Shown here piece by piece: positions 4,719-15,392 of a DNA stretch of 32,572 nt. Source of the DNA: Arcticibacter svalbardensis MN12-7 (GTDB lineage Bacteria; Bacteroidota; Bacteroidia; Sphingobacteriales; Sphingobacteriaceae). The stretch lies in the NCBI RefSeq assembly GCF_000403135.1, contig NZ_AQPN01000009.1, positions 1 to 32,572 on the forward strand, read 5' to 3'. Under the pieces are notes generated by a model that searched no databases, had not been told where the DNA came from, and saw nothing but the letters and a program-made list of their open reading frames with translations. How positions within the stretch are numbered: the first letter of the stretch is position 1; each line of letters opens with the position of its first letter. The position numbers and the translations under genes were made by a program.

Positions 4719-4816
4719 GCGTTCGTATGTTAACTTCTTGTTAATTCCAGATTTATTCTAACCTTACCGGGGACCCTTTTTCCCTCAATCATGCCTCGCA
4801 CCTGAATAGCATCCAC

Positions 4817-5395
4817 AAACTGGAGCACTTCCGGTATTATTCCTACAAGGACAAGGAGGTGCTCGATGGGACCAGGAAACGCGGAGACCGTAAAGAAGGA
4901 TAGCAGATGCACATCCAGATAATTGTCAGCCGTAAAGATGCCACCAACAGGATCAAGCTGAGCCCGATGAATAAATCAAAAGGGAAAAACGAGGAGCATT
5001 CAAAAAAGCTGGGCCAGTTTAACCGTGTTGCCTTTAAACAATCCGGGGAAAACCTTTTTGATACTTTCTTTCAGTTTGATCGCGGGCTGAAAGATACCAT
5101 GGCCTATGCCAATATTGGAAAGAACGGGAACTTAAATCAGCGGCAACAGCTGGATATACTAGAGGCGGCGGCTGAAGGAAATCCAGAAAGTAAAGTACTG
5201 GCAAATGAACTATCCAGGGATGTGGCCATTGGGTTATTTAACTCTGTACAGGATCTGCTCCTTAGTGTTGGTCACACAGCAGGAGCTTTTCTGGAGATTC
5301 TCCTGGATACGCCTTTTGATTCCTCCATTGGATCTGATCCGAATGGAGAAGAGAAGAAAAGAAAAAAAAGAGTAAAGGTAAAAATTATGGATTAA
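4817..5395 (+). pseudogene. Remnant of a Bacteroidota mobilisation relaxase (DUF5712-like), 5' truncated with in-frame stop
   Basis: The open part is 162 codons from ATG 4907 and contains MHIQIIVSRKD, KLSPMNKSKGKNEEHSKKLG and FNRVAFKQSGE, then a basic C-terminus. I recognise these from memory as the C-terminal half of DUF5712-type relaxases of Bacteroidota mobilisable and conjugative elements. The same frame continues upstream from about 4817 (KLEHFRYYSYKDKEVLDGTR, then RGDRKEG). It is interrupted by TAG at 4901-4903 where the family, as I remember it, has Glu. The nicking domain with its catalytic Tyr and His triad is missing; upstream of about 4817 the family similarity stops. It is therefore a decayed fragment, not a working relaxase. 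It points to past insertion of a mobile element between the sigma gene and the hip operon. The family assignment needs a profile search. Confidence 0.72.
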
Positions 5396-5636
5396 GACGA
5401 TAAATAGGAAGTACCAGATAAGTTTAACTTGGATTCTTAGGACTTTATGCAGTTCGCTGGGAAAATTTGCATGTCATGATGATTGGAATAATCATGGAGA
5501 AAACTTATAATCTGAAAAATTTGCAATTTAGCTCATTATTAGCAGGAAAAATTTGTTTGTTTAGATAACATGGACAAGAACATACCGCTCCATCTTCAAG
5601 AGATCAGCCGAACCCATAATGTGAAAAAGCGGCTTG
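5396..5636. other. Junction stretch between relaxase remnant and hip operon
   Basis: This is an AT-rich 241-bp stretch with no convincing gene. A plus-strand reading frame opens at ATG 5570 and gives about 22 non-hip codons (MDKNIPLHLQEISRTHNVKK) before running antisense into the 3' end of hipT. It could be the beheaded start of another element gene, or chance. The motif AAAATTTG recurs three times (near 5463, 5517 and 5548). No terminator for either neighbour is obvious. Confidence 0.4.
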
Positions 5637-6560
5637 TTAATGAAACAACAGTTGCTTATTATTCCAAATTTCCAGATATCGTTCCTTTTTTTCGGGACTT
5701 AGGAAAGATGCTGCAATTAAGTTACCGACTTCCTTATTACCGGAGGCAAATTTATTATATGTATTCCTAACCGCCATTTCAGGTATATTCATACTTCTTG
5801 CCAGCACATCAAAATCAGATAATCTAATCCTTTTCTTTTTGCCGTTTATTGTCAGGGCCAGTTCTTCATCATCTTGCGGATTTACCAGATTCACATTGAT
5901 CAGGTCATAGGCAGGACTTAGACCTACGCCTTCGTCCGTGTATAGCACAGAAAAGTTTTTCAGGTGCATATCATTGTTCCCTGTTAAAAAAGAAAATAAC
6001 ACCAATTCAAAATAAGTCAGCGCATCAAAACCAGTTTGAGTGCAGTATTTCAGGATAAGCTTGCCGATCTTTTCATAAGATCCCTTGTATTTATTTTCTG
6101 TTAAAAATTCAGAAAGCTGGCAGAAATCTTCCATGTGAACTTTATGGCCTTTCACCCGGTCAAACCGCCTGGCAAGATAAACTAAACTGCCGTCTGATGC
6201 TTTTATTAGAGTGTGATCACAAGTTGGCATCTTAAACAGGCTCGCCAAATGCATCGTCAAATCTTCTGATTGCGGCATTTCCGGAAAATCAGGATGCTGA
6301 GGTTTAAGTATATATTCTCCCCAAAGTCCTACTATCGTCAGACGGTTCCTTTCCTTGGTCTTTTCCAACGTAACAGAAAGTTTGGGCTGAACTCCGGTCA
6401 CAGCAATCCTTTCGTTGATGGTTTGGTCAGCCAACGTTTTCAAAAATTTATCATTCAATTCCAGCTCAGGTACTTTAGCCGTACCAAAAAAACGCCTTGA
6501 ACACTTTTCATGATAAGACGACATACCTGCATCCTGATAACAAAACCAACAATTTGCCAT
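5637..6560 (-). CDS. hipT: HipT-type kinase toxin (HipA C-terminal domain) with N-terminal zinc-knuckle
   Basis: This is a Ser/Thr kinase of the HipA family; characterised relatives phosphorylate aminoacyl-tRNA synthetases. At 307 residues it lacks the N-subdomain 1 of full-length HipA, which is encoded separately just upstream. Kinase landmarks are a P-loop-like AVTGVQPKLS (residues 53-62), RRFDR (131-135), the catalytic GNNDMHLKN (Asp197, Asn202) and a metal-binding SPAYDL (Asp219). All catalytic residues are present. The phosphoacceptor motif, SIS in E. coli HipT, reads AVT here, leaving Thr55 as the only candidate. The first 20 residues contain C-x2-C-x9-H-x2-C (Cys4, Cys7, His17, Cys20), probably a zinc knuckle. 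It starts 3 bp after the hipS stop, so the two are translationally linked. The target is unknown. Confidence 0.9.
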   Translation of the reverse strand: MANCWFCYQDAGMSSYHEKCSRRFFGTAKVPELELNDKFLKTLADQTINERIAVTGVQPKLSVTLEKTKERNRLTIVGLWGEYILKPQHPDFPEMPQSEDLTMHLASLFKMPTCDHTLIKASDGSLVYLARRFDRVKGHKVHMEDFCQLSEFLTENKYKGSYEKIGKLILKYCTQTGFDALTYFELVLFSFLTGNNDMHLKNFSVLYTDEGVGLSPAYDLINVNLVNPQDDEELALTINGKKKRIRLSDFDVLARSMNIPEMAVRNTYNKFASGNKEVGNLIAASFLSPEKKERYLEIWNNKQLLFH

Positions 6561-6563
6561 AGC

Positions 6564-6887
6564 TTAATCTGTTTCGGGAATTACCGTCACAGCTCCAATT
6601 GCATCCCTGCATGTTAAAAGTAGTAATTCAAACCGGTCATTGCTTTTTACCTTCCAGTGCGTTGTAGCTAAATCCAACAGCCAGCCTTCCGGTATTAAGC
6701 CATCAAAAAAAGCAAAAAGCACTTTACTTTCGTATTTCTGGGCTGAAAGGGGAAGCGTTAAGCTTACAGGCTTCGCGTTTTTATTTTCTAAGTAACCGGT
6801 CTGGTAACTAAATTCGTAACCCCCCTCAGTTTCCGCAAGCACACCAGCCAGCATGTCCTGAAAATAAATCAAACCTTTCTTACTCAT
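6564..6887 (-). CDS. hipS: HipS-type antitoxin (stand-alone HipA N-terminal subdomain)
   Basis: This 107-residue protein corresponds to the N-subdomain 1 of HipA. It contains the family signature LFAFFDGLIPEGWLL (about residues 57-71), the earlier strand pair PVSLTLPL, and the terminal RDAIGAVTV segment. In full-length HipA this subdomain is fused to the kinase; in HipBST systems it is a separate protein that neutralises the kinase. The ATG at 6887 lies within the end of hipB, with an 8-bp overlap, and the gene ends 3 bp before hipT. That places B, S and T in the order known from enteropathogenic E. coli HipBST. Its role as the actual antitoxin here is inferred from that organisation. Confidence 0.87.
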   Translation of the reverse strand: MSKKGLIYFQDMLAGVLAETEGGYEFSYQTGYLENKNAKPVSLTLPLSAQKYESKVLFAFFDGLIPEGWLLDLATTHWKVKSNDRFELLLLTCRDAIGAVTVIPETD

Positions 6888-7083
6888 CTTCCTTTACTTT
6901 TGATACCACTCCGAGTTCTGCACCAAATAACATCAATACCTGATTCACTTTATCCATCCGCAATGTTGGTTTTCCCTGTTCCATCTCACGAACAACCCTA
7001 AGTCCTACACCTGCTTTCAATGCCAGGTCTTCCTGTGTAAGATTTAATAATTTCCTTTTTTTCTTTAAATATTCCGACAACAT
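6880..7083 (-). CDS. hipB: HipB-type XRE-family antitoxin/repressor
   Basis: This is a small helix-turn-helix DNA-binding protein that should repress its own operon and, in classical systems, bind the kinase. From ATG 7083 it is 67 residues: LSEYLKKKRKLLNLTQEDLA, then KAGVGLRVVREMEQGKPTLR, a typical XRE fold, followed by MDKVNQVLMLFGAEL. The frame also opens at a TTG at 7107, but that codon lies inside the TATATTTG promoter box and the extra residues would be encoded by the first operator, so ATG 7083 is preferred. The stop codon overlaps the hipS start. Three palindromes upstream are the likely binding sites. Confidence 0.9.
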   Translation of the reverse strand: MLSEYLKKKRKLLNLTQEDLALKAGVGLRVVREMEQGKPTLRMDKVNQVLMLFGAELGVVSKVKEDE

Positions 7084-7090
7084 ATATATA

Positions 7091-7184
7091 TACCCGATAG
7101 GGTACAAATATAGAATAAATACTAAAATTATACCCTATAGGGATTATAATAATCATTTTCTAAAGAAATATACCCTATCGGGAT
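7091..7184. promoter_or_regulatory. Three palindromic operators of the hip operon, 40-bp periodic
   Basis: Three sites share the pattern TACCC-(T/G)AT(A/C)-GGG(T/A): O1 7091-7104 TACCCGATAGGGTA, O2 7131-7144 TACCCTATAGGGAT, O3 7171-7184 TACCCTATCGGGAT. Their starts are exactly 40 bp apart. O1 covers the expected transcription start of hipB, O2 the -33 region, and O3 lies upstream, an arrangement suited to cooperative autorepression by HipB dimers. The classical HipB operator of E. coli (TATCC-N8-GGATA) has a similar inverted-repeat design. Confidence 0.75.
7105..7112 (-). promoter_or_regulatory. -7 box of the hip operon promoter
   Basis: The minus strand reads TATATTTG, a perfect TAnnTTTG, lying directly between O1 and O2 and 22 bp before the hipB ATG. 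No TTTG -33 box is present at 19-21 bp; that position falls in O2. The placement between operators supports its use and the downstream hipB start. Confidence 0.5.
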
Positions 7185-7333
7185 TATTATTTGGACGTAG
7201 GTATAAAAACCAACCCGTCTTGGTAACGGATGGTACAGATTTCTTCACATGGTTATTAAACCAAGCGCGCTAAGTAACTATCCATCGTTGTAAATGGTAG
7301 CACCTTAATGTTCATTTGTCTTTACTCACAGTC

Positions 7334-14495: not shown

Positions 14496-15392
14496 ATGAT
14501 TGCTCCTCCATATTTAAAAAAAGGCGATAAAATTGCCATAACCTGTCCTGCTAAAAGTCTTCCCGGAGACATTACAAGTGCCATTCACTTACTTGAATCC
14601 TGGGGATTAGAAGTCGTTATTGGCGATACCGTCAGCGCATCCTATCATCAGTTTGCCGGCAGCGATGAACTCCGCACACAAGACATGCAGCGTTTTCTGG
14701 ACGATACCGAGATCAAAGCAATAATCGCAGCAAGAGGAGGATATGGAACCATACGGATCATCGATCAGCTTGATTTCTCCAACTTTACTAAAAGTCCCAA
14801 ATGGCTGGTAGGATTTAGTGATATCACCGTCCTTCACAGCCACATCCATGCCTGCTGTCAAACGCAGACCGTTCATGGTCAGATGCCTTTAAATGTACCC
14901 GACGGCACCAAACCATCCCTTGAATCGCTTCGTAAGGCCCTCTTTGGCGAATCCTTAAGCTATCAATATAAAAGTCAAACCACAGGCCGCAATGGAAAGA
15001 CAACAGGCACACTCATTGGTGGCAACCTTACTCTACTGGTCATGATGAGTGGTTCTGTCTCTGAAATGGATTTTGATGATAAGATTCTTTTTATCGAAGA
15101 CATTAGCGAATATCTGTATTCCGTTGACCGCATGTTATGGCAGCTAAAAAGAGCCGGTAAACTAGCCAAATTAAAGGGTTTAATTATTGGCGATTTCACC
15201 GATATGAAAGACAACTCAACTCCTTTTGGAGAAACTATTCCCGAAATGGTCTTGAATCATGTCAAAGAATATGATTATCCGGTCTGCTTCGATTTTCCAG
15301 CAGGACATATTGCAGATAACTTCGCCTTAAAACTGGGTTTCCAAATAGAATTAAGCGTACAAGACTTAAACGTCAGTACTGAACAAAAATAA
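14496..15392 (+). CDS. LD-carboxypeptidase (peptidase family S66)
   Basis: This cytoplasmic serine peptidase removes the terminal D-Ala from tetrapeptides during murein recycling. At 298 residues it matches family length. The nucleophile is Ser108 in KWLVGFSDITVLH, the catalytic Glu is Glu201 in LFIEDISEYLY, and His271 lies in FPAGHIADN, giving the S66 Ser-Glu-His triad. An ARGGYG segment (79-84) shapes the pocket. It begins 25 bp after the toxin gene on the same strand and may be read through from that promoter; a functional link is unlikely. Confidence 0.93.
   Translation: MIAPPYLKKGDKIAITCPAKSLPGDITSAIHLLESWGLEVVIGDTVSASYHQFAGSDELRTQDMQRFLDDTEIKAIIAARGGYGTIRIIDQLDFSNFTKSPKWLVGFSDITVLHSHIHACCQTQTVHGQMPLNVPDGTKPSLESLRKALFGESLSYQYKSQTTGRNGKTTGTLIGGNLTLLVMMSGSVSEMDFDDKILFIEDISEYLYSVDRMLWQLKRAGKLAKLKGLIIGDFTDMKDNSTPFGETIPEMVLNHVKEYDYPVCFDFPAGHIADNFALKLGFQIELSVQDLNVSTEQK

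Follow-up and report, generated by a model that had tools for sequence, protein, structure and literature searches.

A HipBST operon of Arcticibacter svalbardensis whose kinase belongs to a large Bacteroidota HipT clade with a conserved CCHC motif

The closest described relatives of the locus reported here are the tripartite HipBST systems of Escherichia coli O127:H6 and Legionella. HipT of the E. coli system phosphorylates Ser197 in the KMSKS motif of TrpS; an S197A exchange abolished this phosphorylation, and mass spectrometry detected Ser199 as well, with lower localisation (PMC6581861). Trp65 of E. coli HipS is needed for neutralisation. With regard to the phosphoacceptor positions in the P-loop, the first was judged the more conserved among 48 HipTs, and PsiPsiT is already listed among HipT motifs (PMC10627512). 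The AIS form of E. coli HipT was not toxic and was phosphorylated at the remaining Ser59 (PMC10627512), whereas the Legionella kinase, HipT(Lp), was still toxic as S54A and as S54D (PMC10653801). In HipT(Lp) the phosphoserine is held by an RxDR motif (PMC10627512). An N-terminal mini-domain was called of unknown significance in E. coli HipT (PMC10627512), and residues 4-28 of HipT(Lp) have been described as part of the kinase N-lobe (PMC9325769). HipBST systems of Bacteroidota are already published, homologues of HipBST(Lp) being said to be widespread in that phylum (PMC10653801), and some of these may well be of the type analysed here.

The DNA under study, referred to as the window, is a stretch of 32,572 nucleotides from Arcticibacter svalbardensis MN12-7. 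An earlier note had read from it a complete three-gene HipBST-type operon with separate genes for repressor, HipA N-subdomain 1 and kinase, overlapping or 3 bp apart. Gene order and matches to HTH_3, Couple_hipA and HipA_C bear this reading out, and the parts of the operon are:

6880-7083, minus strand: hipB, XRE/HTH repressor, 67 amino acids from the ATG (HTH_3 1.3e-08, TIGR03070 4e-22)
6564-6887, minus strand: hipS, stand-alone HipA N-subdomain 1, 107 amino acids, antitoxin by homology (Couple_hipA, PF13657, 2.2e-24; TIGR03071 3.8e-30)
5637-6560, minus strand: hipT, HipA-like Ser/Thr kinase, 307 amino acids, toxin by homology (HipA_C 9.5e-45)
6453-6560, minus strand: stretch of hipT for the N-terminal mini-domain, with the CCHC ligands
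6381-6404, minus strand: HipT P-loop, A53-V54-T55-G56-V57-Q58-P59-K60

The hipB stop overlaps the hipS start by 8 bp (6880-6887), and a 3 bp gap (6561-6563) separates the hipS stop from the hipT start. NCBIfam matches were to couple_hipA and couple_hipB/Y4mF, and in the Pfam search HipT matched HipA_C only, with no N-subdomain 1. The order B-S-T in separate genes is kept in relatives: a hipS-like gene adjoins hipT on the upstream side in 174, and a hipB-like gene lies near it in 173, of 176 HipT-type rows. Three of these rows are the window operon, and two other genomes contribute two rows each. A scan of genome contigs matched at least 590 stretches, at least 574 of them confirmed as encoding relatives. 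Because so many stretches encode relatives and hipS and hipB stand beside hipT in nearly all rows, the operon is genuine, far beyond chance. The kinase G-loop, Lys86, H199-x2-N202 and Asp219 are invariant in 29 aligned rows.

Upstream of hipB, a motif search found three operator-like boxes, with a promoter-like word between the first two:

7093-7102, plus strand: operator-like box 1, core CCCGATAGGG, adjoining the hipB start
7105-7112, minus strand: promoter-like word TATATTTG, fitting TAnnTTTG, between boxes 1 and 2
7133-7142, plus strand: operator-like box 2, core CCCTATAGGG, 40 bp from box 1
7173-7182, plus strand: operator-like box 3, core CCCTATCGGG, 40 bp from box 2

The first start of the hipB open reading frame is an alternative TTG at 7107. 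Because the frame is common to close relatives only from MLSEYL, directly after the operator, the ATG at 7083 is the likely start of hipB, and given that start 7093-7182 consists of operator-like boxes and not of coding sequence. The palindromic pattern CCCKATMGGG has three exact matches in the window (7093, 7133 and 7173), spaced by exactly 40 bp, where shuffling leads to an expectation of 0.05 per window and none of 100 shuffles contained three. Three or four similar boxes lie upstream of hipB in 12 of 13 relatives, L016 being an ambiguous exception, and the box at the hipB start codon mostly reads CCCGAAAGGG in the 13 compared. A word fitting TAnnTTTG, which we take to be the Bacteroidota -7 promoter consensus, occupies the same place in 11 of the 13 (exceptions L011 and L016). 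Across the whole genome, four sites match a 16-base form of the box with at most one mismatch, one pair here and the other pair upstream of a lone hipB on a different contig; with up to three mismatches the box was not enriched genome-wide (38 matches against 32 for the reversed pattern). Boxes and spacing are what autorepression by HipB would need, and we infer that HipB binds them.

The lone hipB (L189:1537-1752, near 14776-14832 of G000:C54) encodes an HTH core nearly identical to that of the window HipB. The box occurs twice there, at a spacing of 41 bp, and TATATTTG recurs as well. An AbiEi_3 antitoxin gene follows this hipB; a profile search of this 3 kb locus found no hipS- or hipT-like frame. 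The product of the lone hipB could cross-regulate the window operon.

HipT begins with the motif C-x2-C-x9-H-x2-C, whose ligands are C4, C7, H17 and C20, and the knuckle that the earlier note had described is real and conserved. All four ligands are found in 79 of the best 80 of at least 574 homologues, the remaining one being N-truncated, and this rules out the knuckle as a one-off quirk. When the mini-domains of 172 HipT rows were realigned (giving, for example, CTSC and CCCC in other clades), 130 were CCHC (128 distinct, two pairs being the same sequence), five CCCC and one CHCC, while 36 had at most two ligands and none had exactly three; these counts omit the window copies L001 and L083 and the truncated or interrupted L026, L027, L057 and L110. 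The knuckles of L061 and L063 have longer loops, seen in the alignment and missed by the regular expression, and L027, which is N-truncated, has no hipS or hipB neighbour.

The earlier note had proposed a phylogeny to see whether zinc-knuckle HipTs form their own clade, and a single CCHC clade emerged. The unrooted trees were built without the mini-domain and motif columns, from rows merged at 85% identity (126 in all, 82 of them CCHC), and E. coli and Legionella HipT are absent from them. The CCHC rows make up one side of one branch (SH-aLRT 98), and in a second tree with 40 CCHC rows the clade has 92/95 and appears in 94% of 200 bootstrap trees; its UFBoot value of 92 lies under the tool's star level. 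In a second clade, with SIS P-loops, the kinases at the first forks are CCCC, and most of those further in have degenerate ligand sets. Metal-competent kinases also stand among these degenerate ones: the rows L171 and L181 are placed there, and the position in that part of a CCCC kinase of a tripartite Arcobacter operon and of a CHCC kinase has weak support. A third clade, mostly SIQ, reads CTSG or CSSG throughout (support 100). The tree requires at least three changes of metal competence. One simple account would be that the ancestor had a metal site whose ligands were later lost, and gain is the alternative direction. Mini-domains with CxxC...CxxC, once CxxH...CxxC, were seen outside the CCHC clade in L168-L171, L174 and L181, one of them from an Arcobacter plasmid hipBST.

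In the parts of the open HipBST main texts searched, no zinc or Cys motif in HipT was found. Within those parts, 'zinc' does not occur in PMC8262856, PMC10653801, PMC9325769 or PMC6581861 and occurs once in PMC10627512, in a reference title, and 'cystein' occurs once each in PMC10653801 and PMC6581861, both times in the methods. The earlier note had asked whether its motifs were already described: this is so for AVT, which is covered by the published PsiPsiT (PMC10627512), and is not so for the knuckle in the literature searched.

An AlphaFold2 model of HipT (mean pLDDT 85; residues 1-30 at 90-93) places C4 and C7 in a turn between the bridge-paired residues 3 and 10, H17 just before the helix 18-25 and C20 in its first turns; the first 36 residues modelled alone gave the same elements up to residue 25 (mean 89). 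The ligands of knuckle and treble-clef fingers usually lie at such turns and helix starts, and the model suggests that the four conserved ligands are arranged in the same way, as in a CxxC-HxxC zinc finger. The whole model could be aligned right from its N-terminal end to HipT(Lp) (7wcf, 7vkc) and to the HipT of E. coli (7ab3-7ab5), beginning at residue 1 or 2 for 7wcf (Z 36.1) and 7ab3 (Z 33.0), whereas with the HipA chains of E. coli and Shewanella the alignment starts only at model residues 26-34; the mini-domain is therefore common to HipTs. By sequence, too, the best solved relatives are HipT(Lp) (E 8.6e-50) and the HipT of E. coli HipBST (E 2.5e-20).

For the mini-domain alone, a Foldseek search returned no significant match; HipT chains were among its 11 rows, and the best was a chain of an E2-E3 complex (4ccg, E 2.9), presumably the FANCL RING. 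A VIA search gave no row at Z 2, the window mini-domain matches no Pfam model, and a mini-domain profile run against PDB sequences matched only ribosomal L18 (E 0.38), which we took as chance. Some of 26 mini-domains weakly touch RING, LIM and FCS zinc-finger models (best E 0.0027), although the window's own does not. Earlier work had likened Lpg2370 to FANCL, and the structure paper reports that the two share neither significant sequence similarity nor an apparent resemblance in structure (PMC9325769). This argues against a simple RING link, and a RING-like origin of the mini-domain was rejected.

The lack of a significant fold match is what could be expected if the Cys/His set were a redox (disulfide) switch or had some other role than that of a metal site. 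This alternative appears very improbable to us, as one ligand, the third, is His in 130 rows with Cys in its place in six others, and no row has exactly three ligands, which together are as expected of a structural metal site; the weak zinc-finger matches also speak against it. Most likely, one zinc ion is bound by the CCHC motif, which thereby keeps the small mini-domain ahead of the P-loop together. In E. coli HipT the mini-domain may represent a zinc finger that has decayed.

The earlier note had also suggested that the knuckle may be a recognition surface, through which the kinase would dock with its target or with HipS. The ligands are indeed invariant in the clade, and the same clade has a distinctive HipS: Glu67 and Trp69 of the window HipS occupy the positions of E. 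coli Glu63 and Trp65, and this Glu-Trp pair is present in 126 of 128 CCHC partners versus 2 of 41 partners of other types. However, the Trp wedge and the CCHC set could both be simple inheritance within one clade. Moreover, the residues that link the two ligand pairs differ from row to row (in number they are 9-11 in 124 of 130 rows and at most 18 in the others), and few residues besides the ligands are constant (Y8, F25, P31 and nearly G26 in 26 rows), which hints, if weakly, at a core more than at a contact face. On this evidence a structural role seems to fit somewhat better, and we regard a recognition role as unlikely.

A further claim of the earlier note concerned the P-loop. The window HipT reads AVT, and of the two published phosphoacceptor positions only Thr55 can indeed be phosphorylated, but AVT falls under the PsiPsiT motif already listed (PMC10627512). 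Among the CCHC kinases (n=130) the first position is A in 74, T in 35, S in 20 and C in 1, and the third is T in 101, P in 23, S in 4 and A in 2, so that in this clade the third position is the more conserved. The two positions changed 10 and 9 times, respectively, over 118 HipT tree rows. Within the subclade to which the window kinase belongs (30 tree rows), Ala is always found at the first position and Ser or Thr always at the third; L011, which was merged at 85%, has TVT. Ala and Pro occupy the two published positions in L117, L121, L126, L130, L132 and L133. The six CCHC kinases with no Ser or Thr at either position have a Ser two residues before the Ala in five cases and a Thr directly before it in the sixth.

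These data bear on the idea that autophosphorylation of Thr55 is the sole control of the kinase. The Ala53/Thr55 pair and its persistence throughout the subclade would agree with it, as does the phosphorylation of Ser59 in the E. coli AIS form (PMC10627512). Yet a single regulatory Thr is not a rule: both positions change often, 25 of 130 CCHC members have Pro or Ala at the third, and six have an acceptor at neither, though all six carry the nearby Ser or Thr. HipT(Lp), moreover, is toxic with or without its acceptor serine (PMC10653801), and we think control by Thr55 alone rather unlikely. The AVT kinase is also a natural match to the E. coli AIS form that lost toxicity (PMC10627512), and the HipTs of this clade could be weak or non-toxic kinases kept for operon regulation or other signalling. 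This we consider quite improbable, given that the kinase motifs are kept (RxDR and the catalytic GNxDMH each in 129 of 129 CCHC rows checked) and that hipS is kept beside hipT in nearly all loci. Since the E. coli AIS form is non-toxic whereas HipT(Lp) tolerates S54A, we treat the Ala kinases as putative toxins.

The single TrpS of the host reads KMGKS, and thus lacks the Ser197 equivalent and has that of Ser199. TrpS was looked up in ten other genomes, of which nine carry a CCHC hipT, while all matches in the tenth, G100, are HipA-like. The eight readable CCHC genomes have KMGKS in three and KMSKS in five, and G100 has KMSKS; the TrpS pattern search of L200 found nothing. The KMGKS sequences of the host and three other CCHC HipT genomes are L195, L204, L205 and L206. 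Host GltX reads KLSKR. Because Gly stands at the Ser197 position, the target in this host cannot be TrpS at that site, and the site known from E. coli is not to be assumed here without more ado; judged by these sequences, it is missing in this host and kept in most other hosts read.

The cassette is widely distributed. The best 80 of at least 574 loci belong to named Bacteroidota as far as titles tell, and the closest named HipTs among the matches listed are from Mucilaginibacter (92% identical). In 395 genomes of the phylum we found 53 CCHC hipT genes (L083-L135, of which L110 is interrupted) in 52 genomes, the window's included. The earlier note had called the kinase features unusual, which holds relative to the enterobacterial proteins but not within the phylum, where CCHC is the commonest of three HipT types, with 53 genes versus 41 others read. 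Of the HipA-like matches in these genomes five were read, and the partial or interrupted matches of G184, G436, G141 and the second places of G425 and G223 are left out. A search of 60 genomes of relatives gave a match in 26, many of them distant and HipA-like. No match was found in 50,697 phage records, and six pattern matches in viral_contigs included no relative; a phage or viral origin was rejected on these grounds. The same genome has a second hipBST (L002:753-2307, G000:C84), of SIS type and without the metal motif, and two HipT types also occur together in some other genomes of the phylum, about 3 kb apart in G263.

DNA similarity to ten close Mucilaginibacter loci begins at 5610-5629 and ends at 7183-7189 in nine of them, the tenth being truncated by the end of its contig; in five more distant loci it runs from 5635-5831 to 7112-7193. 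Several of the Mucilaginibacter loci share flanks with each other, up to a few kilobases. That hipBST and its boxes stand at a different place here suggests that the cassette arrived horizontally. A conjugative plasmid of Runella carries a hipT 52% identical to that of the window, with a relaxase gene nearby. Beside the window hipT, at 4814-5395 on the plus strand, part of a DUF5712 gene is left, interrupted in frame by a TAG. This remnant spans about positions 121-237 of the 289 in the model, and by the family's usual context we take it to be a relic of a mobilisable element.

Taken together, we consider it probable that the operon is a tripartite HipBST cassette of a large Bacteroidota HipT clade, with a kinase toxin restrained by HipS and a mini-domain held by zinc. 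HipB, alone or with HipST, would bind the three boxes 40 bp apart around the promoter and repress the operon. HipS would restrain HipT with Glu67 and Trp69 wedged at the P-loop, as Glu63 and Trp65 are in E. coli. Freed from HipS, HipT would phosphorylate a cellular target other than the TrpS Ser197 equivalent and thereby stop growth. The CCHC set would bind one zinc and stabilise the N-terminal mini-domain, which other HipTs have without the full ligand set. Zinc binding, repression, neutralisation, toxicity and target are all conditional parts of this proposal, whereas gene order, families, the boxes with their spacing, ligand conservation, the clade and the alignment of the mini-domain with solved HipTs were observed directly. 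More tentatively, and short of a reading we would favour, the zinc-finger mini-domain may have decayed in the E. coli and Legionella types, while in CCHC kinases P-loop control was given up or rewired, HipS became the main brake and the target in some hosts ceased to be TrpS Ser197; that P-loop control changed in this way is suggested by Ala at the first position in most members of the clade and by the lack of an acceptor at the known positions in some.

The operon itself is an ordinary one, from a frequent but little-described branch of HipTs, and the part worth following is the metal motif together with the degenerate mini-domains of its relatives. It offers a testable reading for a mini-domain to which its discoverers assigned no clear significance. 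In addition, natural HipTs with Ala, or with no Ser or Thr at either published position, provide material on the importance of phosphorylation in the P-loop, and the question of the target becomes directly testable in hosts with a TrpS that is missing the serine phosphorylated in E. coli.

Finally, the locus can be set against the known systems. It shares with E. coli O127:H6 HipBST, whose HipT targets TrpS, the order B-S-T, the HipS wedge of Glu and Trp, the RxDR motif (PMC10627512) and the position of the mini-domain (7ab3 aligned from residue 2). It differs in its P-loop (AVT versus SIS), its CCHC mini-domain, an identity of 27% in the structural alignment and a host TrpS without the Ser197 equivalent. 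Legionella HipBST(Lp) is likewise tripartite and contains the closest solved kinase by sequence and fold, but has the motif SVQ and a Cys-x-x-Thr mini-domain where the window has AVT and CCHC. The S-Psi-Q type is not matched, as the window kinase has an AVT P-loop and belongs to a separate clade from the kinases with that motif (the Legionella protein being outside the tree); the CTSG/CSSG kinases, mostly SIQ, form a clade apart from the window's and have the HipS Trp in 2 of 17. The second hipBST of the same genome (L002) is also tripartite, with HTH-, HipS- and HipA_C-like genes, but its kinase is 33% identical to the window HipT and has an SIS P-loop, SNGDAHYKNF, RFDT and two of the four ligands. 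HipBA of E. coli K-12 and Shewanella shares the kinase core and the HTH partner, whereas its HipA carries N-subdomain 1 in the same chain and lacks the mini-domain.
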